DNA of 64,000 nucleotides from NCBI GenBank assembly GCA_001466705.2, contig LATX02000025.1, positions 1 through 64,000 on the forward strand. The letters run 5' to 3'. A model generated the notes under the pieces. It was given only the letters and a program-made list of their open reading frames with translations, was not told the origin of the DNA and searched no databases. Source of the stretch: Moniliophthora roreri. Taxonomy: Eukaryota; Basidiomycota; Agaricomycetes; Agaricales; Marasmiaceae. Positions 470 through 59,055 of the stretch are shown piece after piece (position 1 is the first letter of the stretch; each line of letters starts with the position of its first letter). The translations under genes and the position numbers were made by a program.

Positions 470-1062
470 TAGAGAAAGGATCATCAAAGCCGCACGAGAA
501 ACTCCCTTCATCGACCACCTCATCGGAGACTATCAATTCGTCCAGCAACAATATCAACACTTCGACAGATTGATGACCGCCGCAAATCTCCAGCTCAACA
601 GGCTCGCTGTTGACATCGCTGCGACGGGATTCGTCATCCTGGGACAATTGACGGTACCGATGATTTGCGCCCCAGAAATCTTTTCCCCTCATCCCTTCTC
701 CCAATCAGATTACACCCCCGCCTCCAGGGGAGAGACATCTCCCACAGGCGGACTGGAATATCCTCCTCAATCTCCCACAGAGGCCCTTGAGGACTATGAG
801 CTCGTCGAGAGTTCCCGAGCCGCATCCGCCCCCATCCAGATCTACCGTTTTAATACAGACAGATTCGATTGACCAGAACCATCTCCGAGTCCCGAGCCCC
901 GAGCTTCCCCAATCCCCTCCACCTCAACCAGAGCGTCAGCACCCCCAGAACCCGTCTCCCGGAACATTAAACTCCGAGTCCAATTCAGCCCCGAGACCGA
1001 ACAGATCCCCATTACCAGAGCCGAGCTCGACAGAACCCCTACCCCACCCCCTTGTATTCCTT
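470..1062 (+). mobile_element. Gypsy ORF3 fragment, right contig copy
   Basis: Essentially identical by eye to G1 positions 8913-9505 (start of ORF3 through its proline-rich middle). Homology stops abruptly near 1062 after CTTGTATTCCTT. It then runs into the decayed gene copy at 1063-2160, so the fragment is truncated here. It carries the same internal TGA (869-871) as G1. Near-identity with G1, 8 kb away, points to recent copying or to assembly of G1 reads into this contig end. Confidence 0.75.
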
Positions 1063-3979: not shown

Positions 3980-5393
3980 CAACGAAGACACCACGTCTAG
4001 ACATCGGCGAACCACGGCCGAAGACCCAGAACTAGCTGAACGAGAACAACAGAGGAGAGCCTTTCTTCTTGTTACTCCAGAAACCGAGCTCACATTCGAG
4101 CAAAGAATCCAAAGAATAGAATTACTTGCCCAGGAAGAGGCAAGAGAACAGATCCAACAACGGACAACCAGAACACCCAGAACCAGAACCAGAACCAGAC
4201 AAACCCTCGACTTCGCGACGGGTTTCGAACTGTCAGATCAGACAAGGAGAACATCGACCCCAAACTCTTCCCATCAGTCGTGAGCGCCTTCTCAGGAACG
4301 GACGAACTCCCCGACTACAGAACCGGAAATTCAGACCCGCTCTTCCAAAACCCCGAACCAGCCGTCGTTTACGAACAGGCCATCAGAAACCGACAGACCG
4401 GAAACCCTGATCTTAACCACATCACCTTCCTCCTCTCCTCCATCAGACCCCATGACTACACAGCAGACCTCCGCGTCACTTCAGGATTTAATTTCCGCCT
4501 TAAGGACGTTAACGAATGGAGAGAAAAAGAAAGAGAACAAAGTAGCGGTACCCAATCATTACGATGGAAGCCCAGCCAAGGCTAGTACCTTCCTTATGGA
4601 AGTAGACCTATACCTCATGGCTAATGAAACCCTTTACCCTAACAACAAAGACAAAATATTATTCACCCTGTCGTATATGAAGGAGGGACAAGCCGCGAAT
4701 TGGATGAAAGCAAAGACGGAGGAATTCAAAAAAGAACTTCGGGAGAAACAAGCGGAGTCATCTGATACCAAACCAGAAGATCAAATTCACGTAACAACAT
4801 GGGAAGAATTTTTGACAGATTTCAAAAAGGCGTTCCGACCCCTAGACATTGGAACCGACGCCAGATTGAAGATGAAACTTCTTAAACAAAACAAGAAACA
4901 TGTGGATGAATATATCACGGAATTCCGTCTCCTTGCTGCGGATGCCGAATATGATCATAGAGCCCTTATCGATCATTTCCTCGCCGGACTTCATCCTGCT
5001 CTTCTCAAATCATGTTTAATGCAACCCGACCAACCAGATACTATCGACGAATGGTACGACAGAGCCAGGAAGTACAACAACGCCTGGCTTACCATGATGG
5101 CCATCACAGGAGAAGAAAAGTCGAAGAAGCCGATTAGATCCGAAACAAAGGTAAACTGGATCTCTGACGAGGAAGCACAAGAATATCGTCGGAAGGGGCT
5201 ATGCTACAAATGCAGCAAACCAGGTCACATTGCAAAGAACTGTCAGGAGAAACTGAGGAATGAACAGAAGAAAGAAAACCCGAAGAAGTCTACCCCAGAA
5301 GATGCATATCATAAAATTCACGCCATCTACTGAGATTTCTCTGAAGAAGAACAAACCCAGATCTTAGACCTTATGGAAGGAGGGGGTTTTTAG
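3980..5393 (+). pseudogene. gag: G1 gag (frame-broken)
   Basis: Structural nucleocapsid precursor. The N-terminal part reads in one frame from about 3990 (acidic, glutamine-rich, PETELTFEQRIQRIELL), shifts frame near 4230-4450 (KENIDPKLFPSVVSAFSG in another frame), and returns at 4452. The frame from 4452 holds the capsid-like block (VPNHYDGSPAKASTFLMEV) and one CCHC knuckle CYKCSKPGHIAKNC at 5202-5243. A TGA at 5331-5333 precedes the likely authentic stop TAG at 5391-5393. The final TAG abuts the -1 slippery heptamer. The frameshifts and the TGA make this copy non-functional for Gag unless they are sequencing errors. Confidence 0.85.
5384..5390 (+). promoter_or_regulatory. Putative -1 ribosomal frameshift heptamer
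   Basis: G_GGT_TTT in the gag frame, immediately followed by the gag stop TAG. It fits X_XXY_YYZ, and pol is open in the -1 frame from here (5387 onward). G2 has the same heptamer at 54359-54365, immediately followed by its gag stop TGA. Any downstream pseudoknot was not assessed. Confidence 0.7.
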
Positions 5394-8300
5394 TGCGGCG
5401 GTTGAGCTCGACGTCTCCCCTGCCAATTCGTATCTCTAGTGTAACTGTATCGGCCACGATGGAACAAAATTCTATGCGTATTCCGCTGGCTCTCTATACT
5501 GGAGAACAAATCGTTGAAAAACTAGCGCTCCTAGATTCTGGAGCAGAAGGGAACTTCATCAGCCGAGTAACGGCCTGAAAGTTATGTCTTCCCTTGACTA
5601 AATTAGAAAAAAGGATAAAAGTTCTCAATGTAGATGGGACTTTGAATACTTCGGCATATGTGACTCACACTGCCCGAACAACCTTCTTCATCGGAGATAA
5701 AAAGATGACAGAAGACCTCATGGTATCTGGATTAGGAGGTGAACAACTCATCCTCGGAATGCCATGGTTACGACATTATAACCCTCAGATCAATTGGAGA
5801 AACGGAGAAATCAAATTTCCACCAAGAAGGAAACTCAACATCAGACGCTTCAGAGGAATACTAGACCATACTCCAACAGAAATCCTCATATGAGCAAAAA
5901 CCTCCGTTTCCCAAACACTGGAACACAATCAAAAAACCGAAGAAAAGAAGCCTGTGGAAGAATTAATCCTGGACTTCCTCATTGATTATAAACGACAATT
6001 CGAAAAACATGCGTTGGAAAGATTCCCGGAATCCAGACCCTACGACCATGCCATTGATCTTAAACCTGGAGTAGAAACTTTAAATTGCAAGGTCTACCCC
6101 TTATCTCCAATAGAACAACAACTCCAAAACGAATTCTTGACCGACAACCTCCAAAAACGCTACATCCGGCCTTCGAAATCCCCGATGGCTTCGCCTTTCT
6201 TCTTTGTATCAAAAAAGGAAAAAGGAGCCTTTAGACCGTGTCAGGATTATCGAGAATTGAACAAGGCAACAATCAAAAACGCATACCCGTTACCCTTGGT
6301 CTCGGACCTTATTGACAAACTAAAAGGATCACAATACTTTACCAAACTGGATCTACGAAACAGTTACAACAATATCAGAATCAAAGATGGAGACCAATGG
6401 AAAGCCGCTTTCAAAACAAACAAAGGACTTTTTGAACCAATGGTGATGTTCTTTGGACTATCCAACTCCCCAGCTATGTTCCAGTCGTTTATGGATGACA
6501 TCTTCGCTGATTATATCGAAGAAGGTTGGGTAGTAATCTATATGGACGACATCTTAATATTTTCTTCAGACTTGGAAACCCACAAAAAACAAACGATCAA
6601 AATATTGGAATGACTTCGACTTCACGACTTATTTCTAAAGCCGGAGAAATGTAGATTCAACGTCACGGAAATCGACTTCTTAGGAATGATCATCAGGCCA
6701 GGGTATATCGGAATGGACCCGGTAAAACTAGCAGGAATCCGAGACTGGAAACCACCCACAACGGTCAGAGGAGTCCGGTCATTCTTAGGATTCGGAAACT
6801 TCTATTGGAAATTCATCGGATGGTTTTCGGAACTTGCCAGACCACTAAATGAACTAACAAAAAAGGACAAGAAGTTCGAATGGACTAAAGAATGTCAAGT
6901 GGCGTTCAATGCCCTGAAGTGGAAGTTTCTCTCCGAACCAGTATTGATAATGCCTGATACAGAGAAACCCTTCTTGATAGAATGTGATGCTTCGAAATGG
7001 GCAACAGGAGTGGTTCTCAGACAACAAGGAATGGATGGAGAATGGCACCCATGCGGCTATATTTCACATTCTCTCACACCAACGGAAAGGAATTACGAAA
7101 TATATGATCGAGAACTATTCAGTATCGTCCGAGCTCTGGAATCCTGGCGACATTACCTTATGGGCGGAAAACACCCGATCACTATTTTATCCGATCACAA
7201 AAACCTCATGTTTTTCAAAACGGCACAGAAGTTGAACCGAAGACAAGCCAGATGGAGTCTATTCCTATCCCAATTCGACCTTCAACTAATTCATACCCCC
7301 GGAACCAAGATGACTCAATCAGACGCTCTTTCTAGAAGACCAGATCATATCGACAACAACGAAAATGATAACGACAATGTAGAAAACTTGAAAGGAGAAA
7401 CCTTATACGACGATGCAATGAGGACGATTCTCAAGGAAGGACCACCACCGATCAAATCGGCATTGGAAGACTGGACAACACGAGACGGACTTCTCTTTTA
7501 CAAAAACAGATGTTACGTTCCGAACAAAGGGAACCTACGACGTGAAATTGTAAAGACAATACACGAGGCAAAGGGGATAGGACACCCGGGACAATTCAAC
7601 ACTCTAGAACAAGTCTCTCGAGAATATTGGTGGCCAGGAATGGCTAAATTCGTCAAAATGTTTGTCGATGGATGCGCAAGATGCCAAGAAAGCAAATCGA
7701 TCACTCATCCAACCAAAGCTCCATTGTTACCCATTGAAGGGGAAAAAGATGTGTTACCCTTCTCCAAAATCACGATGGATTTGATCACAGACCTACCAGA
7801 ATCAGGAGGTTACGATACCATTTTAGTCGTGGTGGACCACTCCTCTACTAAGGGGGTAATTTTCACACCATGTAACAAAACCATCGATGCAGAACAAACA
7901 GCGACACTACTTCTCAACAACGTATACAAAAGATTCGGACTACCCAATAAGATTATCTCCGATAGAGATCCCCGATTCGCCGCAAAAGTCTTTCAAGAAC
8001 TAGGAAAACAGTTAGGAGTAAAACACATAATGAGTACCGCATTCCATCCACAGACAGACGGAGAATCTGAAAGGGTCAATCAGGAATTGGAAGTCTTCCT
8101 TCGACTATTCTGTTCCAGACAACAAGACAAATGGACAGAACTCCTCCCCTTCGCCGAATTCGCACACAATAACAGAACACACTCCACAATGAAGAAATCC
8201 CCATTCTATCTAATGATGGGATACAATCTGAGGCCCCTTCCAACAGCCTTTACGAAAACAACGATTCCATCAGTAGAAACGAGGCTTTCGGAGTTAAAGA

Positions 8301-9016
8301 AACTCCGAGAAGAAACTTATTCCCTTATGGAGTTAGCAAGAAGAAGAATGGAAGGTTCAGCTAAACGGTCATTCACCCCGTTTACAGTGGGACAAAAGGT
8401 GTGGTTAGAAGGAAAGAACCTCAACTTCGGATATCCATTGAAGAAGTTGGCACCAAAAAGGGAAGGACCCTTCAAAATCGAGTCAGTACTAGGACTGGTG
8501 ACGTACAAGTTGACTCTCCCAGAACAATGGAAAGTTCACCCTGTCTTCCATGCATTACTCCTAACCCCATACAAACGAAACGAGGTCCACGGAAGAAACT
8601 TCCTAAAACCACCGCCTGATTTAGTAGAAGGACAAGAGGAGCACGAGATAGAGGCGATCGTCAGACATACCCCGAAAAGGAAACCTCAAAGGTTTCTAGT
8701 GTCCTGGAAGGGATATCCCTCAGCGGAGAATGAATGGCTGTGGGAAGAAGACTTCGAACATGCCAAAGAGACATTAGCAGACTATAAAAAGGCCAACAAG
8801 CTTAGGAAAATCCTCACCAAAGCACTCACATCGAAATGTCTCAATCATTCACCTACGATAACCTCCGCCCCACCGCAGCCCAGCTTCTCTACCTTCTCAA
8901 TAACACCACCTATAGAGAAAGGATCATCAAAGCCGCACGAGAAACTCCCTTCATCGACCACCTCATCGGAGACTATCAATTCGTCCAGCAACAATATCAA
9001 CACTTCGACAGATTGA
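5387..9016 (+). pseudogene. pol: G1 pol: PR-RT-RNaseH-IN-chromodomain, three TGA stops
   Basis: A single frame (-1 to gag) of about 1,210 codons, broken only by TGA at 5576, 5891 and 6611. Aspartic protease LLDSGAEGNFIS (about 5530-5565). RT with YMDDILIF near 6540 and [12 protein letters not shown]. RNase H with [23 protein letters not shown] and SDHKNL. Integrase zinc domain (H..GHPG then CARC), core with MDLITDLP and SDRDPRF plus the catalytic glutamate in DGESERVNQE. GPY/F-like KREGPFKI, then a chromodomain (FLVSWKGYPSAENEWLWEEDF, about 8690-8760). Aligned with G2, the 5576 and 6611 stops fall on arginine codons, fitting CGA to TGA. The serine-rich tail overlaps ORF3 by 181 nt. Confidence 0.92.
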
Positions 9017-9969
9017 TGACCGCCGCAAATCTCCAGCTCAACAGGCTCGCTGTTGACATCGCTGCGACGGGATTCGTCATCCTGGGACAATTGACGGTAC
9101 CGATGATTTGCGCCCCAGAAATCTTTTCCCCTCATCCCTTCTCCCAATCAGATTACACCCCCGCCTCCAGGGGAGAGACATCTCCCACAGGCGGACTGGA
9201 ATATCCTCCTCAATCTCCCACAGAGGCCCTTGAGGACTATGAGCTCGTCGAGAGTTCCCGAGCCGCATCCGCCCCCATCCAGATCTACCGTTTTAATACA
9301 GACAGATTCGATTGACCAGAACCATCTCCGAGTCCCGAGCCCCGAGCTTCCCCAATCCCCTCCACCTCAACCAGAGCGTCAGCACCCCCAGAACCCGTCT
9401 CCCGGAACATTAAACTCCGAGTCCAATTCAGCCCCGAGACCGAACAGATCCCCATTACCAGAGCCGAGCTCGACAGAACCCCTACCCCACCCCCTTGTAT
9501 TCCTTTCACAATCCCAGCCAACAACGACCCCGAGAACACCTGGACCACCAGGGATTGGAACGCCCCAACTCCACCCCCAGTCGACCCCTGGGACACCTCC
9601 TCTTGGACTCTCCATCCCACCACCCCCAAACGACCCGTCCCCCAAAAACAACGCCGACGTCGCAACAACCGAACCAAGAAGTCCACCATCCTCCTCAGCA
9701 CCCAGTCCGATATCCATACCCGAATTCATCAATGCGATCAATGTGGTAAGCGGGGTCACCATACACAGGACTGTCGAAACTACCAGTGTTCGGTCTGCGA
9801 CACATACCAACCTCACCATCTCTCTGAACATTGCCCACGACTACGAAGAAGCGAACGAATTTTTATCGCAAGGTCTGTTCGGAGTCATCCAGCTGTTGAT
9901 GGCTTTGAGGAGGACTACGCTGATTCGACCACCCTCTCCAACCTTACCGACGAGCCCCACTTCTACTGA
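8836..9969 (+). CDS. G1 ORF3: post-pol protein with tandem CCHC zinc knuckles
   Basis: An extra gene between pol and the 3' LTR, in a different frame from pol. It starts MSQSFTYDNLRPTAAQLL. An alpha-helical, probably globular N-terminal domain (about residues 1-110) is followed by a proline/serine-rich middle, a basic stretch (KQRRRRNNRTKK), then two zinc knuckles: CDQCGKRGHHTQDC (9733-9774, CX2CX4HX4C) and CSVCDTYQPHHLSEHC (9787-9834, CX2CX6HX4C), then CPRLRRSERI. One in-frame TGA at 9313 interrupts it and is shared by the fragments at 1-1062. G2 carries a homologous ORF3. Its role is unknown; a nucleic-acid-binding accessory or nucleocapsid-like function is inferred from the knuckles. Confidence 0.7.
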
Positions 9970-10141
9970 AGACGAAGAAGAAGAAGCACCCCCTGTCTAT
10001 ACCATCGTCCGCATCACCGACAACCGGGAACCAATTACCCTCACCACCGACGATGGAGAAGAGCGGACGTTCGTACCGGTGAGATATGTTAATGGGGCCA
10101 CCGTATTCGAAGCTGGAACTTCGAACCAAAACAGGAGCTAG
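9230..10141 (+). CDS. Overlapping frame to the 3' LTR, proline-rich, uncertain
   Basis: A 303-codon ORF in another frame that overlaps most of ORF3 and ends with TAG exactly one base before the 3' LTR. The part overlapping ORF3 is low-complexity P/S/T and may be open by composition alone. The part beyond ORF3's stop (9970-10141) is different: acidic EDEEEEAPP followed by VYTIVRITDNREPITL and ERTFVPVRYVNG, which looks like real protein. Either ORF3 continues into it by a frameshift near 9960, or it is a fourth ORF. In G2 too, the region before the 3' LTR is open in a frame other than that of the knuckles. Confidence 0.4.
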   Translation: MRTMSSSRVPEPHPPPSRSTVLIQTDSIDQNHLRVPSPELPQSPPPQPERQHPQNPSPGTLNSESNSAPRPNRSPLPEPSSTEPLPHPLVFLSQSQPTTTPRTPGPPGIGTPQLHPQSTPGTPPLGLSIPPPPNDPSPKNNADVATTEPRSPPSSSAPSPISIPEFINAINVVSGVTIHRTVETTSVRSATHTNLTISLNIAHDYEEANEFLSQGLFGVIQLLMALRRTTLIRPPSPTLPTSPTSTEDEEEEAPPVYTIVRITDNREPITLTTDDGEERTFVPVRYVNGATVFEAGTSNQNRS

Positions 10142-12414: not shown

Positions 12415-12918
12415 GTGCAATGTCAAAGGAGAAGAACGTTCCAAAATCCCCAGATCCCCCTCACATCTACGAAGACCATTGCCAGACATTGTATCTTCCG
12501 ATTCTGGCCTCGTCATCCAGAAGGAACCATATATCGTGCTGCACCCGGATGGAAATGCAAGCAAACACCTAATGCTACGCATCTATGGGGCGCTACACTA
12601 TACGTGAAAATGGTATGCATAGCACACGGTAGCTATCTCCCTTACTAGTGGAAGACGACCGGGAATAGGATGGCTGTATGGTGCCAAATGGTCGGAGAGT
12701 TGTATACCGCAAAGTACGAGTTGGAATGGGCCGGCAACGAGGCTGACCCGAAGAGAATTGAAGCTGTGGATATCGTTGAAGTACACGAGAATCAGGTTGA
12801 CTGTAGGCTTCCGGGTACGAGGTATGGTCAGGCGGTCACTGCCATGGCCAAGGAAAAAGGACTGCAGGACGAGGACGCCGATGTAGGCAACAATCAGCTT
12901 ATCATATTCTTTGGCTAA
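12415..12918 (+). pseudogene. Hypothetical gene, frame-broken
   Basis: Not recognised as a named family. The C-terminal part reads YTAKYELEWAGNEADP then EAVDIVEVHENQVDCRLPG and RYGQAVTAMAKEKGL (12705-12870), clearly protein-like. Upstream, an intron of 36 nt (12613-12648, GTATGC..CTAG) would join NATHLWGATLYVKM to the next exon. The bridging piece IGWLYGAKWSES (about 12665-12700) is in a different frame, so at least one indel is present. It lies directly upstream of the kinase-like gene on the same strand. Confidence 0.4.
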
Positions 12919-13368: not shown

Positions 13369-15129
13369 ATGATTCCATCGAGACCGCCTAAACCTGTTCA
13401 AACAGAAGAGGCGCATCTCTTTCTCTCCAAGTATAGCAGGAAAGGAGAGGGAAATCACTCGTTTGTGTACGAAGCCGAATGGGAGATACCTCGCGAGTTG
13501 TTCGTCGAAGCAAAAGCGAAGCAAGTTTGGGTTGAACAGAAGAACGTAGAGTCGAATATGAAGCAGGCTTCGCGTACCGAATCGGCTAGGGTAGTTGATG
13601 ATCCCGATCCTGGAGACGACGTGGTGCTTCCAGAGATGGACGATGAGCAGCCACGAGTCTACCTTGCAGAATTGGAAGCCCAATTGGATCTAGCGGTGAC
13701 TGCGGCGTCAACTGCACCTGCTTCCTCTCCGCCAACACCTGCTCCAGCTGCACCGGACTACCTCGACCCCGAGCCTGCTCGAATCGCAAGCTGCGGTCTT
13801 CCTCTGCAGACATGCAAGACGTGGCAGAACGCGACTACGACTACTCATCCAGCCATATTACCGAATTGTGGCACTGTATGGGTCGAAGCGCTCCGGATAT
13901 CCGGTGCTCCAACTACAACCTTCCACGCTTGTTCACTCGATGAGGTATCAAAGGAGAACCGCCGGAAAGCCCAGGAAGCGAGGGACAGAGGCGAAAAGAA
14001 GGAATGGGTGTACAGCGAGGATGTTACCGAGTCAATGAAACAGAAGTTTGAAGGAGACCGAATCATGGTTCTTGGTCCTGGCGAAGAGTTACGGAAGAAG
14101 GAAGAAGAGGAACTCGAACGTCGTCGGAGCTCGGCTATGGACGTTGATGGTGGTACCAAAACCCAAACCAACACCGTAGAAATCGGCGGTACCTTTGAAG
14201 CACCAGTAAACCCTGCAGTGCCAGATCGTTATCGTGTTACAATTTACTACGCCGGTATAGTGCGCACTATACACGTCTCTTCCATACCCTGGGTACTTCC
14301 TGGAGATCCAGCATGCCCAGTTCATGGCCGTCAGCACCTATTCACACCTTCCCTTGACCCTCACAAACCCAATATCCCTGCCCCCTCGATAGACAACCTA
14401 CACGCTTTATTTGGGGAGCAACGTCTACCACCAACAATGAAAGTTGGGATAACAGCGAAAATCAGTATTCCTGGTGATGGGCATCTTGCGAGGGAGGCGA
14501 CGAACTATGAAAGGTTTCCGAGGAGCTTCGCAGAGCATTGGAGTGGGTATAACTTGTGTTACCCATTGCATGATCCAACACCGTGTGGAGCAATTACTCC
14601 GGCGTTTTATGGGTTTTACAAAAAGGGTTGTCGGTCGGAAGAAGGCTAGAGAGCATGATGGGGAAGTGTTTGTTGAAGGAGCTATGAACGATGAGGACAG
14701 CGGCAGTGAAGAGAAGGAGATGTACTTTAGCCCGCTGCTGCTTCTGGAAGACTGCGGTGACCCTATCGACCCGGAGAAGCTGAATCTCGATGATAGGTGC
14801 GTACTTTCTCGATTGACCATATCGATCGTCTTACTGATACTCGTTTCAGACATGAATGTGCCGCTCTGCTCTTCCGCTTTCATCATCACGGCTGGACACA
14901 TGGTTCCTTCTTCCCTCGTAACATCCTGATGCGGCGAGGAGACCATGCAGATTATCCTATGGAGAGGAGCGAGAAGGACAAACGGTTTAGGCTGATTGAT
15001 TTTGGTCGGTCGCGATACCTAGAGGATTTGGCTGCGGATGACGAGAAGGGTAGAAATGAATGGGATAAGACGAGGTTTGAAGAGAAGAGTACGGTTTGGC
15101 ACACGATGACTTTGCCGAATTTCACGTAG
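13369..15129 (+). pseudogene. Protein kinase-like gene (pseudokinase), one frameshift
   Basis: Basidiomycete-type divergent protein kinase. A glycine-loop-like GEGNHSFVYEAEW (about 13446-13485) is followed by a long low-complexity insert, an N-lobe lysine/glutamate pair (ITAKISIPGDGHLAREATNYERF, 14452-14517), the hinge block LLLLEDCGDPIDPEKL (14740-14785), then across an intron at 14797-14849 (GTGCGT..TTCAG) the catalytic loop HGSFFPRNIL and LIDFGRS (14990-15010). The catalytic aspartate of HRD/HGD is serine here, so catalysis is unlikely, while DFG is intact. A one-base frame change is needed near 14610, in a T- and A-rich run. The last exon is repeated at 16073-16350 by the assembly. Confidence 0.65.
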
Positions 15130-16071
15130 GACTTGTACTTGCCGCGTCCTTTATACTGCTTTCGCCGTGTTTTCTTGTCGCTTTCCGGCCGTCTTGTAGC
15201 TCATGATACAACTTTTTCCCTTGTAGCACATAGTTTTTCATGTATTACCGTGTACTTAGCACTCCCATGCTGGAATCCGCTGCACTAGCTATTCGATCAA
15301 TCTGACTTCCTGACGAATATGTATTCGAGGAGATATCGGAGCAGCTACGCCCTTAGTATCATCGAACACGAAGCGGTTGAATAGGCTCCGAGCGTCAGAA
15401 TTTGGAACACGCAGTTCTCGCAGATGGAGTACGCTACATGCCACCACTGTAATGCGTGATACACCTAAATTCTGCTGTAACGTCTATGTCCGACCTACCG
15501 CACTTCCTTGATGTTCCAGTATACCTAGATGAAACGACAACGTGTAAGTACATGCAACATGGGATGGGAGCCGAGTCTAAGCTCACCTTGCCACGACTCG
15601 GGCGAAACGGATTGGGGTTGTGGGAGCTCCGGTTTGCATAGTAAGACGCTGATAGAGAAAGAGAGATACGACTCCTTCGAGGAATGTCAGTTGCCACGGT
15701 ATCCCGGCTGAAGCCGGAAGCCGGAAGTCGAGTGTTTTTCTCGAGGTTGCCGTACCATGAGTATTGTTGGGACTGCGGACATCGGTTGTGATGATGTTCT
15801 GGTTGATACCGCAAGTTCGTCCGAGTTTGAACCATACCGAGCGTTATCGACACAAAAGGTTTGGGGATCTTGTGGCAAAAGAGGGTGCGGGTTAACAGTA
15901 TTGCTTGCTGGAAGGCTGTCGGACCATGCGAGTGGAAGCGGAAGCGGTTCGGTCTTGCGCTGAACAGAACGTTTGAGGTGCAGTGGTCTATATCGGCCCA
16001 AGAACTTGTACCACGGAAAGAGGATTCAAAGTACTCGAATAGGGACTAGGTGTACATGAGCGCCTCGAAAA
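15130..16071. other. Non-coding; shared with block 2
   Basis: 3' flank of the kinase gene. From about 15340 it aligns to 32310-33060. Frames on both strands are short and their conservation between blocks is not frame-specific, so I call no gene. Confidence 0.5.
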
Positions 16072-16072: not shown

Positions 16073-17292
16073 ATGAATGTGCCGCTCTGCTCTTCCGCTT
16101 TCATCATCACGGCTGGACACATGGTTCCTTCTTCCCTCGTAACATCCTGATGCGGCGAGGAGACCATGCAGATTATCCTATGGAGAGGAGCGAGAAGGAC
16201 AAACGGTTTAGGCTGATTGATTTTGGTCGGTCGCGATACCTAGAGGATTTGGCTGCGGATGACGAGAAGGGTAGAAATGAATGGGATAAGACGAGGTTTG
16301 AAGAGAAGAGTACGGTTTGGCACACGATGACTTTGCCGAATTTCACGTAGGACTTGTACTTGCCGCGTCCTTTATACTGCTTTCGCCGTGTTTTCTTGTC
16401 GCTTTCCGGCCGTCTTGTAGCTCATGATACAACTTTTTCCCTTGTAGCACATAGTTTTTCATGTATTACCGTGTACTTAGCACTCCCATGCTGGAATCCG
16501 CTGCACTAGCTATTCGATCAATCTGACTTCCTGACGAATATGTATTCGAGGAGATATCGGAGCAGCTACGCCCTTAGTATCATCGAACACGAAGCGGTTG
16601 AATAGGCTCCGAGCGTCAGAATTTGGAACACGCAGTTCTCGCAGATGGAGTACGCTACATGCCACCACTGTAATGCGTGATACACCTAAATTCTGCTGTA
16701 ACGTCTATGTCCGACCTACCGCACTTCCTTGATGTTCCAGTATACCTAGATGAAACGACAACGTGTAAGTACATGCAACATGGGATGGGAGCCGAGTCTA
16801 AGCTCACCTTGCCACGACTCGGGCGAAACGGATTGGGGTTGTGGGAGCTCCGGTTTGCATAGTAAGACGCTGATAGAGAAAGAGAGATACGACTCCTTCG
16901 AGGAATGTCAGTTGCCACGGTATCCCGGCTGAAGCCGGAAGCCGGAAGTCGAGTGTTTTTCTCGAGGTTGCCGTACCATGAGTATTGTTGGGACTGCGGA
17001 CATCGGTTGTGATGATGTTCTGGTTGATACCGCAAGTTCGTCCGAGTTTGAACCATACCGAGCGTTATCGACACAAAAGGTTTGGGGATCTTGTGGCAAA
17101 AGAGGGTGCGGGTTAACAGTATTGCTTGCTGGAAGGCTGTCGGACCATGCGAGTGGAAGCGGAAGCGGTTCGGTCTTGCGCTGAACAGAACGTTTGAGGT
17201 GCAGTGGTCTATATCGGCCCAAGAACTTGTACCACGGAAAGAGGATTCAAAGTACTCGAATAGGGACTAGGTGTACATGAGCGCCTCGAAAA
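16073..17292. repeat. Assembly duplicate of 14852-16071
   Basis: Identical by eye along its whole length, including the final kinase exon (16073-16350). Treat as artefact. Confidence 0.9.
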
Positions 17293-20022: not shown

Positions 20023-23000
20023 ATGTCCGATAAATCCGTCAGCTTTGGCAATACGCTGTCTAGCGGCATCCAGGATGTCGCTGCCCTCCTTCCCCTTCTT
20101 GGCACAGAGCAAGTCGAGCGACACATTGGCTCCTCTCTCGAGAAGGGCTACTTGTACTCTGCTGCAGCTACACTATCATTATTCGGAAGCCTAGGAGCCG
20201 TTAAAGTGGCGTTCGCAACGTGGATGGCAACTATCACCTACCCATTCTATGGAGGCCGTTGGCTTGATGACGCTGGCTTCTCCACCCCGGGCTCGGTATC
20301 GTCAATGGTCACGATAGACAAGGAAACCGGCCGGTATGGTGCAGAGCTCAGGGTGCAAAAGCTTCTTGAGGACCAGCACATTGATGATCCGAACTTGGTG
20401 AAGGGGTTTGAGCTCATAGAGCAGAAGGGGATGACGGAGGCGCCGCAGGGGTCAGCGGAGGACCAAGGAGGGTTAGTGGGGAGTCAGCAGGGGTCAATGA
20501 GGAGTCAGCGGGAGTCAGTGGAGAGTCAACAGGAATCTGAAGGAGCATCCCACAGACAAACCACACAGGAAGATGTTGATATCGAAGCTCAGCCTCAGGC
20601 AATGAATGGTCCTAACAGTGGAACAACTCCCCAGTGCACTGTTTGGAAGGGTGTCATGGGTGTCTTTAGTCGGGTATCTGGTTCCGTGAAACACTATCTG
20701 ATGGTGAGTCGCCTGTCTAGGCAGTCTTTTTTTTTTTGATGGCTGATGAGCTCATATTCTAGGAACACTCGTGGAACCACATGCTCATCCTATCATCTCT
20801 GCTGAGTGCAGTACTCAGTATCACCCCCTACCTTTACCTCATGAAGGGTCATTGGGATCGTCCCGTGTCATGGCTTTTCCCCTTGCTCCGCTCATTCGGC
20901 TCTTTCCTCTGTGTTGTATGTACACAGCTAGTACTACAGCGCCGAATACATTCCATTGCCAATATCACCCTCATATGGTTGAAGGCTCAGAGGAATGATC
21001 ACTTCAAAGATGAGGTTCATGTTGGCACTCATGGAACTCAAAGTACTGTGCTAGAGAACCGCATTCGCAAATATTTTGATCTTCCCAGGAAGTCAATTCT
21101 CCACCACCTCCAACAACAATTTATCTCTAACATGGGGAAGCAGCAAAATACAGCCACTTCAGAGCATGAAGAGCTAGAGGCCCTCCTAGCTCTAGACTGG
21201 CATCTGGTCCTTTACCATTTCATCATGGTCATTGGCATGGTGATGCTTGTTGCAGGATATGTTGGCTGCTTCAGTCTTGTTGGCCAGACTGGCAATGTGA
21301 AGGCACCATATGTGTGGTTTGGATTGGAAACTGCACTTTCTCTGCTCCGGATTGCCCTGTGGGGACTGAATCCAAGTTGGGATGAGGGTACAGGGTTGAC
21401 AATGTCACTTCAACTGCACCCACTGACCTATTCTGGTCCTAGCAAAGATTCAGAAACCTTCTTTCCCCTTATCACATCACCATATAACTGCTATGATTTA
21501 GGAGTATCATCTGGCTATACATCTTTCCCACAAACATTCATTGTTCACAATGAATCAGACTTCCTCAATATGGCCACTGCATGGGTTGGACCTCTACAAC
21601 GACTGGACTCCAACTCTATCACATTGTTCTACAGTATCTTGGCTCATAATAAGATCAAGCAACTGTATACAACTGTTCAGTTTGCTGATTCCCGCCCTCC
21701 ACTCACCTTTTCTGCTGATGCCAGTGGTGATTTTGAGGTGTTCTCAACCACCTTGAAAACATATCCTCCTACTGGAGCACTTCTGGCTACTATTGGCAGC
21801 CAAATCTTCAAAAAGTATGATTCATTCATTGGTAGTCAGCCATATCTCCAAGTGGTTGATCATTCACAACTACTCAGTGCACATCTATTTGGAGGACAGC
21901 AGCATCCCACTCTTGCAGTCAGATGGAATCTCCTTGGTCTTTCTGATTCTGTTCCTGATCCCAGACATGTTCATGGAGATTCACACAGACCTATAAATAT
22001 TCTTCTGAGCACATATGACAAGAAGTACATGGATCTGACTCAGTCATGGAGATTAAAGTCAGAATACTGTCAAGCCAGAGGACCCATGCTTGCACAGCTG
22101 GCTGCTAGAGATGATCTATACAGAGGAGAAATTATTGATCTCCATGCCACCTCCTTCTATGGTGAGGTATTATTCCTTGTGGAGAGCTTTGTGCTGGAAT
22201 TGCACTTGTGGCACCAGGAGACAGATATAGGGGATCCAACTGTATTGCAACAGATCCTCCCAGAATGCATTCAAGCAATGCAGTCACGTATTGCCACAGA
22301 GAAGGAACAGGCAATTGCCAGATCCAAAGGATACAAGTGGACATATACTAGAGATGAAGGAAGACTGAGTGAGAGATGGGATAATGTGTTGCAGGCACTG
22401 TTACACCTCAGAGAATCTGAGGATCTCCACACAACAGCAAATGCACTCCTTGAACATATTTCCTCTTCATCACCAGGCACACCAATTGAGTCTGTGACAG
22501 ACAATTTGGACAAACTTGTCTCTAATACTAGCCTTGATTACTGGATCCAGAAAATTGCCAACTTTCAAATTGAAGACACATATTCCATCACACCAACTTC
22601 ACAGCAAAAGCTCAAAATGATGCTTAATGCTATGTTCTTCCACCTTCAGAGCATTCTGTCTCATGGCTTCTCACAAGCACATTCAGGCAGGGGCCTATGG
22701 GGGTCATTTATAGAAATCCCTGACTCTGCCTCATGGGGCCCATATGTCCAATCATTCACACTAGAGGCCTTACACAAAAACACACAGTGTGTACGACAAC
22801 TTGAAGAACACGGAAATAGATACAGAGTCGTCAAGGTCAGAGAGGGAAAGAAGATAGAAGATACAGAGGATGCAGAAGAAGTGCATGGGGAAGAAAATAA
22901 CAGAGCAAGGGCAAATACTCTGAGAGACTATCTCCCTCTTATTGCTGCATCAAAGCAACTTACCACACTTATAAGGTCCTTTGACCTCACAGATGATAAT

Positions 23001-23024
23001 AGATCTGTGGTAACAAACTTCTAA
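20023..23024 (+). CDS. Gene A: large multi-pass membrane protein, prematurely stopped
   Basis: Two exons, 20023-20703 and 20763-23024, with a 59-bp phase-0 intron (GTGAGT..TTCTAG), give 980 residues. Exon 1 begins MSDKSVSFGNTLSSGIQDVA and has a hydrophobic stretch (LYSAAATLSLFGSLGAVKVA) and a Q/S/E-rich imperfect repeat (about residues 140-175). Exon 2 encodes about four membrane segments (LSAVLSITPYLYLM; LFPLLRSFGSFLCVV; FIMVIGMVMLVAGYVGCF; ETALSLLRIALWG) and then about 600 probably soluble residues. I know of no function. Family members B, C and D lie in the same window, and D shares the intron position and phase. The stop TAA at 23022-23024 is created by a 31-nt complemented segment. B continues about 220 codons further, so A is truncated. 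Confidence 0.85.
22793..22832 (+). other. 40-nt segment that is the un-reversed complement of its paralogues
   Basis: Position by position this segment is the complement of 25688-25727 in gene B at 38 of 40 bases, in the same 5'-3' order. A begins ACGACAACTTGAAG where B has TGCTGTTCAACTTC. Flanks on both sides align normally with B. Length is preserved, so the frame continues, but the protein becomes unrelated (RQLEEHGNRY against AVQLLVPSSM). Confidence 0.9.
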
Positions 23025-23052
23025 TGGTCGTTAAGGTTGGAACACACGGAAC
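23022..23052 (+). other. 31-nt un-reversed complement creating the stop of gene A
   Basis: Exactly 31 of 31 bases are the complement of gene B 25917-25947 in the same order: A starts TAATGGTCGTTAAGG, B starts ATTACCAGCAATTCC. The bases immediately outside (C on the left, C on the right) are identical, not complementary, so the edges are sharp. The first three bases form TAA in frame and end the gene A product. Confidence 0.95.
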
Positions 23053-23474
23053 CTGGAATGGAGTGCCATGAACCAGAAGAGGATTGTGAACAGCCATACT
23101 GCAAAGCCATTTTCACAAATAGGCAGTCATGGAAGGAGAGGGCACAGAACAATAAGTCTTTTGCATCTACAGTAGGATTTGAATCCTATTGGGCTGAAGA
23201 TATTCAAGCAATGGGTGATTACATCCAACTCTATGACACTGGAAGATGTCTGGTTCTATTCTATTGCCCAAGTGCAGGAGAGCTCAAGGTCACACTAAAT
23301 GTGTGCAGGGGATCCAGAACAATTTCTCTCAAGGCTACTTTGCAGTCAGATCTTGACAAGGCTTTGATACATGAAGTTCCTGTTCAACAAAACAAATGGG
23401 ATTTGGAGCAAGTTATCTTTTGCTTCAATGTTCCATATGGTGCTGGAGAAGGCAGGATACTGAAATTCAGATAG
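23025..23474 (+). pseudogene. Gene A C-terminal remnant
   Basis: The same frame reopens after the complemented segment and matches the B C-terminus (GMECHEPEEDCEQPYCKAIF, cysteine-rich, then a beta-rich GDYIQL..RCLVLFY..GELKVTLNV domain). Relative to B a 91-nt deletion (B 26345-26435) joins CTGGAGA to AGGCAGG. It shifts the frame and ends the ORF at TAG 23474. Confidence 0.75.
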
Positions 23475-23971
23475 ATGGAGAGAAGAAAGAGGTAGAGACA
23501 GATTCAGTCAGTGAAGCAAGCAAACAATCCAATGGTAACAGATAAAGCAGTAGGAGACAGTAACAGAGAATAGAGGAAACATGAGGCTGATGGTATCTAA
23601 GTAGGAGACAGAGCTTGAATGAAAGGAACAGCTGCTGTACTTTTCACATAGTGTTTTGTAGTATAGTTTGACATTATTTATGAAGTTGAACTATGCTTTG
23701 GCCCCAGGTATCTACAGTTGGACTTTACACTTCTCTATAAGTATTACTATATTCTGAAGAGATTATGTTGAGATTTACTGATTAATCTTTAACTTGTCAT
23801 GAATTTGGAACAGAAACATAGAATTCATACTCTATTAAGTGGGCCTACAAATTTAAAGTTGCTGGACAATGTCAGAGGTGGGATTATAGTGTTAAATTGC
23901 AATACTTGTAAACTTGAAATGAAATCTGCTCTGCAACATGAGTCCTTGAGCAGCACCAGATATTGTGTAAG
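23475..23971. other. Gene A 3' flank
   Basis: The first about 170 bp align with the B/C coding end and 3' flank (GAGGAAACAT..GGTATCTAAGTA), then diverge. CpG-poor and AT-rich, with no gene seen. Confidence 0.6.
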
Positions 23972-23972
23972 N
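23972..23972. other. Single-N contig junction
   Basis: The left side is gene A 3' flank. The right side starts in the middle of gene B coding sequence (equivalent to gene A 21103). The first exon and about 350 codons of B are missing from the window. Confidence 0.85.
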
Positions 23973-26576
23973 CACCACCTCCAACAACAATTTATCTCTA
24001 ACATGGGGAAGCAGCAACATACAGCCACTTTGGAGCATGAAGAGCTAGAGGCCCTCCTACCCCTCCTAGCCCTAGACTGGCATCTGGTCCTTTACCATTT
24101 CATCATGGTCATTGGCATGGTGATGCTTGTTGCAGGATATGTTGGTTGCTTCAGTCTTGTTGACCAGACTGACAATGTGAAGGCACCATATGTGTGGTTT
24201 GGATTGGAAACTGCACTTTCCCTGCTCCGGATTGCCCTGTGGGGACTGAATCCAAGTTGGGATGAGGGTACAGGGTTGACAATGACACTCAAACTGCACC
24301 CACTGACCCATTCTGATCCTAGTCAGGATCTAGAGACCTTCTTTCCTCTTGTCACATCACCACATAAGTGCTATGATTTACAGTTAGCACCTGATGGATA
24401 TGGTCACTATATATTCTCTCCACCACAAGCATTTATTGTCCACAATGAATCAGACTTCCTCAATATGGCCACTGCATGGGTTGGGCCTCTACAGCAACTG
24501 GATTCCAACTCTATCACATTGTTCTACAGTATCTTGGCTCATAATGAGATTAAGAAACTGTACACAACTGTCCAGTTTGCTGATTCCCACCCTCCACTCA
24601 CCTTTTCTGCTGATACCAATGGTGATTTTGAGGTGTTCTCAACCACCTTGGAAACATATCCTCCTACTGGAGCACTTCTAGCTACTATTGGCAGCAAAAT
24701 CCTCAAAAAGCATGTTTCATTCATTAGTAGCCAGCAATATCTTCAAGTGGTTGATCATTCACAACTACTCAGTGCACATCTATTTGGAAGACAGCAGCAT
24801 CCCACTCTTGCAGTCAGATGGAACCTCCTTGGTCTTTCTGATTCTGTTCCTGATCCCAGACATGTTCATGGAGATTCACACAGACTCATGAATATTCCTC
24901 TGAGCACATATGACAAGAAGTACATGGATCTGACTCAGTCATGGAGATTAAAGTCAGAATACTGTCAAGCCAGAGGACCCATGCTTGCACAGCTGGCTGC
25001 CAGAGATGATGTATACAGAGGAGAAATGATTAATAGCTGGGCTACCTCCTTTTATAGTGAGGTATTATTCCTTGTGGAGAGCTTTGTGCTGGAATTGCAC
25101 TTGTGGCAGCAGGAGACAGGTATAGGGGATCCAACTGTATTGCAACAGATCCTCTCAGAATGCATTCGAGCAATGCAGTCACATATTGCCATGGAGAAGG
25201 AACAGGCAATTGCCAGGTCCAAAGAATACAAGTGGACAGATACTAGGGATGAAGGAGACCTGAGTAGTAAATGGGATAAAGTGCTGCATGCACTGTTACA
25301 CCTCAGAGAATCTGAGAATCTCCACACAACAGCAAATGCACTTCTTGAACATATTTCCTCTTCATCACTAGGCACACCAATTGAGTTTGTGACAGACAAT
25401 TTGGACAAACTTGTCTCTCATACTAGCCTTGGTGTCTGGATCTATGAAATTTCCAACTTTCAAATTGAAGACACATACTCTATCACACCAACTTCACAGC
25501 AAAAGCTTGAAATAATGCTTCATGCCATGTTCTTCCACCTTCAGAGCATTCTGTCTAATGGCTTCCTACAAGCAAATTTAAATGAGGACCTGTGGGAGTC
25601 ATTCATAGAAGTCCCTGACTCTGCCTCATGGGGCCTATATGTCCGCTCATTCACACTAGAGGTTTTACACACAAACACACAGTGTGTTGCTGTTCAACTT
25701 CTTGTGCCTTCATCTATGTCTCAGCAGAAGGTCAGAGAGAGAGAGGAGATAGAAGATACAGGAGATGCAGAAGAAGTGCATGGGGAAGAAAATAAAGAAG
25801 GAAGGGCAACTACCCTGAGAGACTATCTCCCTCTTATTGCTGCATCAAAGCAACTTACCACACTCATCAGGTCCTTTGACCTCACAGATGACAATAGATC
25901 TGTGGTAACGAACTTCATTACCAGCAATTCCAACCTTGTGTGCCTTGCTGGAATGGAGTGCCATGAACCAGGAGAGGATTGTGAACAGCCACACTGCAAA
26001 GCCATTTTCACAAATAGGCAGTTATGGAAGGAGAGGGCACAGAACAACAAGTCTTTTGCATCTACAGTAGGATTTGAAGCCAGAGATTCAGGAAATGTTC
26101 AAGCAATGGGTGACTATATCAAACTGGGGGACACTGGAAGATGTCTGGTTCTATTCCATTCTCCAAGTGCAGGAGAACTCAAGGTCACACTAAATGTGCG
26201 CAGGAGATCCAGAACAATTTCCCTCAAGGCTACTTTGCAGTCAGGCCTTGACAAGCCTTTGAAACATGAAGTTTCTGTTCGACAAAACAAATGGGATTTG
26301 GAGCAAGTTATCTTTTGCTTTGATGTTCCCTATAGTGCTGGAGAGATTGCCATTCAGAGGGTTTCCACTTATCGGAGTGAGCGCTGGAAGATACATGATC
26401 TAGTTGAGGTGGAATGGAATCCAGAGAGCAGTAGTAGGCAGGATACTGAAATTCAGATAGATGGAGAGAAGAAAGAGGTACAGACAGATTCAGTCAGTGG
26501 AGCAGAGGAGCTGGACAGTGAAGCAAGCAATCTAATAGTAGCAGATAGAGCAGTTGAAGACAGTAATGGAGAATAG
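23973..26576 (+). CDS. Gene B: 5'-truncated copy of the membrane-protein family
   Basis: Open without interruption from the gap to TAG at 26574-26576 (867 codons). Relative to A it keeps the third and fourth membrane segments and the whole C-terminal part. This includes the segment that is complemented in A (CVAVQLLVPSSMSQQKV), the cysteine-rich CHEPGEDCEQPHCKAIF block, the RCLVLF..GELKVTLNV domain, and an acidic tail (AEELDSEASNL). By eye it is more than 90% identical to A, with a 9-nt tandem insertion near 24060. It is the only copy whose visible part has an intact frame. It is strongly CpG-depleted. Confidence 0.8.
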   Translation, partial: HHLQQQFISNMGKQQHTATLEHEELEALLPLLALDWHLVLYHFIMVIGMVMLVAGYVGCFSLVDQTDNVKAPYVWFGLETALSLLRIALWGLNPSWDEGTGLTMTLKLHPLTHSDPSQDLETFFPLVTSPHKCYDLQLAPDGYGHYIFSPPQAFIVHNESDFLNMATAWVGPLQQLDSNSITLFYSILAHNEIKKLYTTVQFADSHPPLTFSADTNGDFEVFSTTLETYPPTGALLATIGSKILKKHVSFISSQQYLQVVDHSQLLSAHLFGRQQHPTLAVRWNLLGLSDSVPDPRHVHGDSHRLMNIPLSTYDKKYMDLTQSWRLKSEYCQARGPMLAQLAARDDVYRGEMINSWATSFYSEVLFLVESFVLELHLWQQETGIGDPTVLQQILSECIRAMQSHIAMEKEQAIARSKEYKWTDTRDEGDLSSKWDKVLHALLHLRESENLHTTANALLEHISSSSLGTPIEFVTDNLDKLVSHTSLGVWIYEISNFQIEDTYSITPTSQQKLEIMLHAMFFHLQSILSNGFLQANLNEDLWESFIEVPDSASWGLYVRSFTLEVLHTNTQCVAVQLLVPSSMSQQKVREREEIEDTGDAEEVHGEENKEGRATTLRDYLPLIAASKQLTTLIRSFDLTDDNRSVVTNFITSNSNLVCLAGMECHEPGEDCEQPHCKAIFTNRQLWKERAQNNKSFASTVGFEARDSGNVQAMGDYIKLGDTGRCLVLFHSPSAGELKVTLNVRRRSRTISLKATLQSGLDKPLKHEVSVRQNKWDLEQVIFCFDVPYSAGEIAIQRVSTYRSERWKIHDLVEVEWNPESSSRQDTEIQIDGEKKEVQTDSVSGAEELDSEASNLIVADRAVEDSNGE

Positions 26577-27062: not shown

Positions 27063-27063
27063 N
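27063..27063. other. Single-N contig junction
   Basis: Joins the gene B 3' flank to the middle of gene C coding sequence. The 414 bp to the right (27064-27477) are identical to gene B 24451-24864, and the 656 bp to the left are identical to the gene C end. Confidence 0.85.
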
Positions 27064-29112
27064 CAGACTTCCTCAATATGGCCACTGCATGGGTTGGGCC
27101 TCTACAGCAACTGGATTCCAACTCTATCACATTGTTCTACAGTATCTTGGCTCATAATGAGATTAAGAAACTGTACACAACTGTCCAGTTTGCTGATTCC
27201 CACCCTCCACTCACCTTTTCTGCTGATACCAATGGTGATTTTGAGGTGTTCTCAACCACCTTGGAAACATATCCTCCTACTGGAGCACTTCTAGCTACTA
27301 TTGGCAGCAAAATCCTCAAAAAGCATGTTTCATTCATTAGTAGCCAGCAATATCTTCAAGTGGTTGATCATTCACAACTACTCAGTGCACATCTATTTGG
27401 AAGACAGCAGCATCCCACTCTTGCAGTCAGATGGAACCTCCTTGGTCTTTCTGATTCTGTTCCTGATCCCAGACATGCTCATGGAGTTTCACACAGACTC
27501 ATGAATGTTCCTCTGAGCACATATGACAAGAAGTACATGGATCTGGCTCAGTTATGGGGATTAAAGTCAGAATACTGTCAAGCCAGAGGACTCATGCTTG
27601 CACAGCTGGCTGCTAGAGATAATGTGTACAGGGAGGAAGCTATTGATCACTTTGCGGTCTCCTTCTATAGTGAGGCATTATTCCTTATGGAGAGCTTTGT
27701 GCTGGAATTGCACTTGTGGCACCAGGAGACAGATATAGGGAATCCAACTGTATTGCAACAGATACTCCCAGAATGCATTCAAGCAATGCAGTCACGTATT
27801 GCCACAGAGGGATCAAGTGTTGCAGATACTGTTACACCTCAGAGAATCTGAGGATTTCCACCCAACAGCAAATGCACTCCTTGAACATATTTCCTCTTTA
27901 TCACCAGGCACACAAATTAGGTCTGTGATAGACAAATTGAACAGGCTTGTCCCTTATACTATCCTTGGTGACTTGATCCAAAAGATTGCCAACTTTCAAA
28001 CTGAAGACACATACTCCATTACACCAACTTCACAGCAAAAGCTCAGGATAATGCTTTATGCCATGTTCTTCCACCTTCAGAGCATTCTGTCTGATGGCTT
28101 CTCACAAGCACATTCAGATGGGAAGTTGTGGTGGTTATTTAGAAAAATCCCTGACTCTGCCTCATGGGGCCTATATATCCACTCATTCACACCAGAGGTT
28201 TTACACACAAACACACAATGTGTTGCTGTTCAACTTCTTGTGCCTTCATCTATGTCTCAGCAGAAGGTCAGCAGGCAAGAGGAGATGGGAGATACAGAAG
28301 ATGCAGAAGAAGTGCATAGGGAAGAAAATAAAGAAGGAAGGGCAAATACTCTGGAAGACTATCTCCCTCTTATTGCTGCATCAAAGCAACTTACTACACT
28401 CATCAGTTTATTTGACCTCACAGATGGCAATAGATCTGTGGTAACAAAGTTTATTACCAGCAATTCCAACCTTGTGTGCCTTGCTGGAATGGAGTGTGAT
28501 AACCCAGAAGAGGATTGTGAACAGCCACACTGCAAAGCTATTTTCACAAACAGGCAGTCATGGAAGGAGAGGGCACAGAATAACAAGTTCTTTGCATCTA
28601 CAGTAGGATTTGAATCCTATTTGCCTAGAGATGTTCAAGCAATGGGTGACTACATCCAATTGCTTGGTACTGGAAGATGTCTGGTTCTATTCCATTGCTC
28701 AAGTGCAGGAGAGCTCAAGGTCACACTAAATGTGCGCAGGAGATCCACAACAATTTTCCTCAGAGCTACTTTACAGTCAAACCTTGACAAGGCTTTGATA
28801 CATAAAGTTCCTGTTCGACAAAACAAATGGGATTTGGAGCAAGTTATCTTTTGCTTCAATGTTCCATATGGTGCTGGAGAGATTGCCATTCAGGAGGTCA
28901 CTACTTTGTGGTCTGGGCACTGGAAGATACATGATCTAGTCAAGGTGGAATGGAATCCAGAGAGCAGTAGTAGGCAGGATACTGAAATTCAGATAGATGG
29001 AGAGAAGAAAGAGGTACAGACAGATTCAGTCAGTGGAGCAGAGGAGCTGGACAGTGAAGCAAGCAATCTAATAGTAGCAGATAGAGCAGTTGAAGACAGT
29101 AATGGAGAATAG
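27064..29112 (+). pseudogene. Gene C: 5'-truncated, frameshifted copy of the membrane-protein family
   Basis: Matches gene A/B from the FLNMATAWVGPL block to the acidic C-terminus. Around 27808 a 77-nt deletion (equivalent to gene A 22302-22378, between CACAGAG and GGATNA) shifts the frame, so it reads as 27078-27851 and then in another frame to TAG 29110-29112. The C-terminal cysteine-rich and beta-rich domains are present. The central part differs from B by several percent while both ends next to the gap are identical to B. Confidence 0.8.
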
Positions 29113-29596: not shown

Positions 29597-29623
29597 CATA
29601 CACTACTTCTCCAAGGATTATAA

Positions 29624-30307
29624 CATCAGCAAAAACTGGAAAGTGCTATAATCTAGCTCCAAGGGGATTATAACCTGGTTGTGGCCTGGTTTGTGGGGGT
29701 TATGACTGGTTTTAAGGGTCATAATATCCTGCAGGTTGATTATAAACCCTGGGGAACCCATTATAACACTCAAGAGGGTAGCAAAAAAAAAACATTTTAA
29801 TACATGATGTTGATTTTTTTTTTAAAGGCTGTCAAGAGGAACCAACTGACCATCACCTGCCATATATGGAAGGTAAGTGATGTCATCTTACCAAATTTGG
29901 CTGACCCTCACTGCTTTTTCATTCCTTGCCACCTCCTCTGTCACTCTCTATGATATTTCAGCTGCATAAATAATTTCAAAGGTCAAAATCATATACAATG
30001 ACAACTAGCAGGGAACTGACAGTGGCCACAGAGGTGCTGTTGTGGTAACTGAAGAAGTTTGAAATTGGGAATTTTTAATAGATGGATGCCCACAACAGAA
30101 TCCTGTTATTTCTGCCAAGGAAAAGCCTGAGAGAAGCAAGTAGTGAGTAATTTGACTACATTTGAGCCCCTAAGGATGCCCAAAACCTAGAAAAAATATG
30201 ACCCAAAAAATTTTTAAGGACCTCAGGACTGAACCAACTGACCATCATCGTGTTTGGGATCCACAGCCTGCTGCCCCCTTGATAGCACTACATGGTTTTT
30301 GCTGATG
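29624..30307. mobile_element. Candidate non-autonomous DNA transposon, about 684 bp
   Basis: Absent from the matching site in block 1, where CTACTTCTCCGAGAATTGTAG runs on directly to CAGTGAACAGC. It begins CATCAGCAAAAAC and ends with the reverse complement GTTTTTGCTGATG (13 bp exact), and similarity continues inward (AGTGCTAT on both sides). No coding capacity. The left 160 bp carry six ATTATAA-like motifs. If its ends are CAG..CTG the element resembles hAT, but no clean 8-bp duplication is visible, so the superfamily is open. A second copy at 30859-31542 is the assembly duplicate. Confidence 0.5.
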
Positions 30308-30457
30308 AACATGGTTGTATCATCTACCAGTAAACAGCGGCTTCATCGGCCCATGATAGCCATCTTCATCATGCATTCCTCAACCTTAGAACATCACAAG
30401 TAACCAACACTGACTGTTTGCCTTTCATTGACAGCAATTGCTCGACAATGAGCCTTA

Positions 30458-30733
30458 CTAGGGTATTTCGATTGATTCGGATGGTCACGTGTCACTGGGG
30501 TCAAAATTTCCAAATATTTTCGGATGGTCACAAGTCACGGAGGGTCCATCCGAATAGGCTCGGACTGTGACCACCAAAAAAACTTCCAAATTTGGCAGTT
30601 TTGGGGTTGATTTTGGGCGCTAAAATCCGAAAATCTTCGGCGGTCACGGACCGCCAGGCCTCCATCCGAATTGTTGAATCCGGATGGACAAGTCACAGGT
30701 CACGGGCCATCCGAATCAATCGAAATACCCCAG
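30458..30733. mobile_element. MITE with 27-bp inverted repeats and TA target duplication
   Basis: 276 bp, from CTAGGGTATTTCGATTGA to its inverted counterpart at the right end. The outermost three bases read CTA against CTG, giving one mismatch in the 27-bp ends. It is flanked by TA on both sides. Block 1 at about 12090 has the empty site (CCTTATCTTC) with a single TA, proving insertion with a TA duplication as in Tc1/mariner. The interior is largely self-complementary (repeated GGATGG / CCATCC and GTCAC) with no ORF. It keeps CpGs although its surroundings are CpG-poor, so it is probably young. The assembly duplicate lies at 31693-31968. Confidence 0.85.
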
Positions 30734-30830
30734 TATCTTCATGAAGACGCTCGGGTTCGCCGCTCCGACACATCACTCCAAAATCTCAATGCACGTCTCA
30801 TCTAGCAACGTGGCTCCATAACTAGCATAC

Positions 30831-30831: not shown

Positions 30832-32065
30832 CATACACTACTTCTCCAAGGATTATAACATCAGCAAAAACTGGAAAGTGCTATAATCTAGCTCCAAGGG
30901 GATTATAACCTGGTTGTGGCCTGGTTTGTGGGGGTTATGACTGGTTTTAAGGGTCATAATATCCTGCAGGTTGATTATAAACCCTGGGGAACCCATTATA
31001 ACACTCAAGAGGGTAGCAAAAAAAAAACATTTTAATACATGATGTTGATTTTTTTTTTAAAGGCTGTCAAGAGGAACCAACTGACCATCACCTGCCATAT
31101 ATGGAAGGTAAGTGATGTCATCTTACCAAATTTGGCTGACCCTCACTGCTTTTTCATTCCTTGCCACCTCCTCTGTCACTCTCTATGATATTTCAGCTGC
31201 ATAAATAATTTCAAAGGTCAAAATCATATACAATGACAACTAGCAGGGAACTGACAGTGGCCACAGAGGTGCTGTTGTGGTAACTGAAGAAGTTTGAAAT
31301 TGGGAATTTTTAATAGATGGATGCCCACAACAGAATCCTGTTATTTCTGCCAAGGAAAAGCCTGAGAGAAGCAAGTAGTGAGTAATTTGACTACATTTGA
31401 GCCCCTAAGGATGCCCAAAACCTAGAAAAAATATGACCCAAAAAATTTTTAAGGACCTCAGGACTGAACCAACTGACCATCATCGTGTTTGGGATCCACA
31501 GCCTGCTGCCCCCTTGATAGCACTACATGGTTTTTGCTGATGAACATGGTTGTATCATCTACCAGTAAACAGCGGCTTCATCGGCCCATGATAGCCATCT
31601 TCATCATGCATTCCTCAACCTTAGAACATCACAAGTAACCAACACTGACTGTTTGCCTTTCATTGACAGCAATTGCTCGACAATGAGCCTTACTAGGGTA
31701 TTTCGATTGATTCGGATGGTCACGTGTCACTGGGGTCAAAATTTCCAAATATTTTCGGATGGTCACAAGTCACGGAGGGTCCATCCGAATAGGCTCGGAC
31801 TGTGACCACCAAAAAAACTTCCAAATTTGGCAGTTTTGGGGTTGATTTTGGGCGCTAAAATCCGAAAATCTTCGGCGGTCACGGACCGCCAGGCCTCCAT
31901 CCGAATTGTTGAATCCGGATGGACAAGTCACAGGTCACGGGCCATCCGAATCAATCGAAATACCCCAGTATCTTCATGAAGACGCTCGGGTTCGCCGCTC
32001 CGACACATCACTCCAAAATCTCAATGCACGTCTCATCTAGCAACGTGGCTCCATAACTAGCATAC
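30832..32065. repeat. Assembly duplicate of 29597-30830
   Basis: Identical by eye, including both small transposons. Treat as artefact. Confidence 0.9.
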
Positions 32066-57865: not shown

Positions 57866-57871
57866 CACCAA

Positions 57872-58872: not shown

Positions 58873-59055
58873 CGAATTGCGCGCTGAGGGTCTGGTTTGA
58901 GTCCAGACTCTTTGCTGGATGATCGCAGTTATGACGATGAACCTTATGAAAATCTCGGAGAATGCTGAAGAGTCGATTCACAATAGTGGAGGTGACACAG
59001 ATTTCCTGTTCATTGGAGCAGATCCACGGAAGGTGCAGAGGTTCAAGGACTGGTC

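Follow-up and report, generated by a model that had tools for sequence, protein, structure and literature searches.

Genes A, B and C and the patches in gene A

The window, the whole stretch of 64,000 nucleotides analysed here, is taken from contig C24 (66,161 bases) of an assembly that comprises 59.4 Mb in 154 contigs. Three paralogous genes lie side by side on its forward strand: gene A, whose open reading frame is cut short at 747 aa (20781-23024), gene B (23799-26576) and gene C, represented by the 3′ part of its reading frame (27799-29112). The piece carrying gene A is joined to that carrying gene B by a single N at 23972, and the pieces carrying genes B and C are joined in the same manner at 27063. 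A Pfam scan of genes A and B (E 0.01) gave no match.

The reading frame of gene A ends within a block of 31 nt (patch 1, 23022-23052, forward strand) in which the sequence is the complement, without reversal, of that present at 25917-25947 in gene B and 28453-28483 in gene C, both on the forward strand and both free of patches. Indeed, all 31 positions were complementary to gene B in the same order, and 6 bases of the left flank and 24 of the right flank agreed directly with gene B before a first mismatch occurred. The complement of patch 1 was found exactly at 25917 and 28453, and patch 1 as written occurred once within the window. Its length was kept and its boundaries were sharp. The frame starting at 20781 was open up to an in-frame TAA at 23022-23024, formed by the first codon of the patch, and downstream of the patch it was open again up to 23474. 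An earlier note, made from the letters of the window, had described patch 1 as an un-reversed complement that preserved length, created the stop codon and was no inversion, and these parts of its reading were confirmed. An inversion would give the reverse complement and is excluded by the preserved base order. The same note had held that such a block would need parallel-strand joining; this part of its reading, a DNA event, was not supported: as described below, such patches recur at six sites on four contigs, and the assembly contains contig overlaps that were left unmerged.

Patch 2, missing from that note, is located about 230 bases upstream of patch 1 in gene A and consists of 40 nt complemented in place (22793-22832, forward strand). 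It was complementary to gene B at 38 of 40 positions, and to C45:1107919-1107958 and the copy at C29:34082 at all 40.

A further copy of gene A at C45:1106689-1111118 contained neither patch. Across 22046-23449 this copy was identical to the window everywhere except in patches 1 and 2, and to the left of 22046 it differed by substitutions and small indels. Separately, 92 nt of the C45 copy are absent from gene A at 23449-23450, a difference that may be real or may be another join fault. The correct reverse complement of C45:1107302-1108705 differed from window 22046-23449 at 71 of 1404 positions, corresponding to the 31 and 40 positions of the two patches. When the two stretches were lower-cased and C45:1107302-1108705 was reverse-complemented with a table holding capitals only, the number of mismatches fell to 0 of 1404. 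Any in-place complementing of those blocks would of course give the same value. This simulation, which covers patches 1 and 2 and reproduces them letter for letter, shows in addition that a common programming slip is enough to produce them, and that the window and the C45 copy are otherwise the same across 22046-23449. The TAA of gene A at patch 1 should not be taken as biology.

Recurrence of the patches and controls against chance

A scan of the assembly for further patches, proposed in the earlier note, was carried out on part of it and brought the number of in-place complement patches so far to six, on four contigs (C24, C45, C23 and C129), with lengths of 31-53 nt. The sequence read amounted to 258 kb of the 59.4 Mb (the window, C45:1065001-1205000 and all of C29), later 310 kb, plus 2 kb around patches 5 and 6. 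Patch 3 (12605-12651, forward strand; 47 nt), also missing from the earlier note, lies in a different repeated stretch from gene A and was complementary to three C45 copies at 47 of 47 positions. Patch 4 (C45:1155564-1155616; 53 nt, 53/53) was recovered by an all-against-all search of the 258 kb. About 112 kb of this set has a paralogue at 85% identity or more, and four patches were found there. Extending the search to a further 50 kb of C45 and to the final 2 kb of C24 brought no additional patch.

Two kinds of repeat found in the window were used for genome-wide queries. Window 62426-63130 is a copy of a repeat of about 705 nt that is very abundant: there were 2004 first-look candidates genome-wide, of which the 40 scored were mostly near 90% identity. 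Window 4452-10141 is a Ty3/Gypsy-type element with gag, RNase H, integrase and chromo domains, present in many copies; near window 7380, many of the scored copies have an additional stretch of about 62 nt that it lacks. Complement queries with the 705-nt repeat, using two copies, retrieved patch 5 (C23:292234-292283; 50 nt, 49/50) and patch 6 (C129:20491-20531; 41 nt), each embedded in a repeat copy and flanked on both sides by directly homologous sequence. Patch 6 was complementary to the window copy of the repeat at 37 of 41 positions, and to the C29 copy at 98% of 41. The second repeat copy, when used as the query, retrieved both patches again, each at 98% identity, together with a weak match at E 0.78. 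A complement query with a 1555-nt part of gene B gave three matches in the whole assembly, all of them gene-family patches already known (the C45 one in part). The complement of a 1032-nt Gypsy piece, a query of low power, had no match in the genome.

Other base swaps, used as controls against chance or ordinary divergence between paralogues, yielded nothing similar. Two control swaps, compared all against all in the 258 kb, gave a longest match of 17 nt, and the complement search of the same sequence gave, beyond the patches, one match of 23 nt in a simple repeat and others of 17-19 nt. When the 258 kb were scanned along fixed paralogue diagonals, the complement runs detected were 31, 40 and 47 nt long; the two control swaps gave no same-strand runs and, on the opposite strand, two runs of only 5 nt. 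A base-swapped control query of the 705-nt repeat had 0 matches in the genome. Other parts of the window gave weak complement matches of 14-19 nt, which were taken as chance; three of these pairs were inspected, and their flanks were unmatched. With complementarity at 31 of 31 positions between matching flanks, and five more patches, chance and ordinary divergence can be dismissed.

The diagonal scan of the 258 kb gave no complement runs of 5-30 nt; because the 53-nt patch was lost to its flank rule, this is no proof that such runs are absent. Their absence would be expected if the patches derive from overlaps that exceed a minimum length, and would not be expected from marks on low-quality bases; lower-case low-quality bases are accordingly an unlikely source of marked stretches. 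Low-complexity masking was rejected as a source on the grounds that the patch sequences, judged by eye, are not of low complexity. The same lack of short runs bears on a fault of consensus or polishing, in which un-complemented bases would have been taken where only reverse-strand reads mapped, as in near-identical duplicates. The patches seen do fall in duplicated sequence with poor unique mapping, yet the scans can only see patches in duplicates. Patches driven by coverage should include short ones. Against such a fault, too, the edges are sharp and the interiors wholly or nearly perfect (31/31, 40/40, 47/47, 53/53 and 49/50, and on C129 37/41 or 98% of 41). A consensus fault is thus very unlikely.

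Single-N joins in the assembly

The first 258 kb contained 25 runs of N, every one a single N. Flush duplicated ends were present at 10 of the 25, seven of them at 100% identity: six of 893 to 1809 bp, and the duplication of 1431 bp at N 63131. The duplicated flanks were missing at six Ns and were partial, shifted or diverged at nine. The flush-duplicated joins look like overlapping contigs left unmerged, and the flush ends at 10 of 25 Ns show that the assembly joined contigs whose ends overlap.

Four of these joins concern the window directly. At N 16072, 1220 bp are identical flush on both sides (14852-16071 and 16073-17292), and this repeat is very probably a false tandem duplication; it also doubles the open reading frames there. 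At N 30831 the identical flush stretches are of 1234 bp (29597-30830 and 30832-32065), at N 59056 of 1367 bp (57689-59055 and 59057-60423), and at N 63131 of the 1431 bp already mentioned (61700-63130 and C24:63132-64562). Single-N joins appear to produce false tandem duplications in the genome.

Redundancy was also seen between contigs. Window 1061-3209 is identical over 2149 bp to the final 2149 bases of C29, so that C24 and C29 overlap, possibly as neighbouring or as redundant contigs. A further redundant or overlapping contig stretch is window 60686-63130, for which C85:105421-107865 gives a full-length match printed at 100%. On C45 the N joins crowd into the repeated region 1097860-1172190, and the stretch 1172191-1245000 runs for over 70 kb without an N. 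Since single-N joins cluster in repeats, the four patches in 258 kb are not a basis for scaling to the genome.

The earlier note had named the finding of many patches only next to assembly gaps as a sign of a software error. Such a restriction was not observed: four patches lie about 0.66 to 3.4 kb away from their nearest N, and around patches 5 and 6 there is no N for about 1 kb. On the overlap-merge explanation a join made by merging would leave no N, so that a software origin is not weakened by this result.

Origin of the patches

The patches are almost certainly an assembly artefact of some kind. A real change of the DNA would require that blocks of 31-53 nt exchange strands in place, unrotated and genome-wide, by parallel-strand joining or templated parallel synthesis. 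What would speak for it is the sequence itself and the recurrence of patches at six sites, within the narrow limits of 31-53 nt. To our knowledge, neither the 5′-5′ and 3′-3′ linkages that such an exchange needs nor a polymerase that copies in parallel has been described. Patches 1 and 2 are missing from the nearly identical C45 copy, and the assembly shows obvious join faults, both of which argue against a DNA event. We regard a real exchange as extremely improbable. Were it true as biology, in-place strand exchange would upend the present understanding of how DNA is joined. The patches are not a known kind of rearrangement, and it is very unlikely that they are a rearrangement at all.

The route that we favour, and consider likely, is that merged overlaps stood in lower case and that a later step reversed them and left them un-complemented. 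Short overlaps of about 30-55 nt between neighbouring contigs would have been merged, and the merged stretch would presumably have been written in lower case. The scaffold or contig would later have been reverse-complemented with a complement table holding capitals only, which is where the fault would have arisen. Lower-case stretches would thereby be reversed and left un-complemented, and would read in the finished sequence as the same-order complement, precisely delimited and of the original length. These three properties are what was found, and the recurrence extends beyond one gene to the six patches on four contigs. The pattern of the patches, their recurrence, their narrow length range so far and the conversion of the C45 copy into the window letter for letter were observed directly. 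The overlap-merge route is consistent with this narrow spread of lengths (31-53 nt), with the sharp patch ends and with the joins by single Ns. Against it, neither a sudden change of best-matching paralogue, the mark of a contig join, nor any other trace of a join beyond the patch itself was seen at the patches. Also on this side stand the lack of a nearby N at patches 5 and 6, the Ns whose flanks were not duplicated (six) or only imperfectly so (nine), and the Gypsy query without a match, albeit one of low power.

An alternative within the class of artefacts is that a gap filler or polisher took sequence from reverse-strand reads and inserted it complemented but un-reversed, as would happen, for instance, if a string-reversal call had no effect in list context. 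Letter case would then be irrelevant, and the same in-place complement blocks would result. GapFiller uses 30-mers as its default (PMC3446322), near the length of the shortest patch, and patches 5 and 6 have no adjoining N. Fills should vary widely in length, however, and the six patches are of 31-53 nt, with none longer or shorter given by the scans. A fill in the wrong order would also be expected to miss its overlap with the far contig edge. This origin is therefore unlikely, albeit less so than a consensus fault.

Whichever software step was responsible, the artefact is a warning, since reading frames can be disrupted and spurious stop codons introduced by such patches. Ordinary alignment puts gaps over them, hiding their nature. 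They are easily found by aligning an assembly to itself after complementing one copy without reversing it, a procedure applicable to other public assemblies.

We know of no published report of a reverse-complement fault confined to lower-case letters, and a literature search for such faults, judged by title and abstract, found none. SSPACE-type tools write a merged overlap in lower case and place a single n at a negative gap without overlap; a literature search for statements of this behaviour turned up none. The reverse-complement routine of SSPACE itself upper-cases first, so that under the lower-case route the fault would belong to another step or program. In SSPACE-LongRead, contigs are merged at negative gaps if an overlap is found (PMC4076250).

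Among known systems, a small DNA inversion resembles patch 1 in being a local, length-preserving block with intact flanks, but it produces the reverse complement, whereas patch 1 is a complement with its order kept. The negative-gap overlap merging of SSPACE and SSPACE-LongRead has its likeness here in the single Ns between flush duplicated ends, and a tool of this kind was presumably used for this assembly. A third correspondence is with a class of programming error, the reverse-complement fault confined to lower-case letters, which gives the window exactly from the C45 copy, with sharp ends and the same length.
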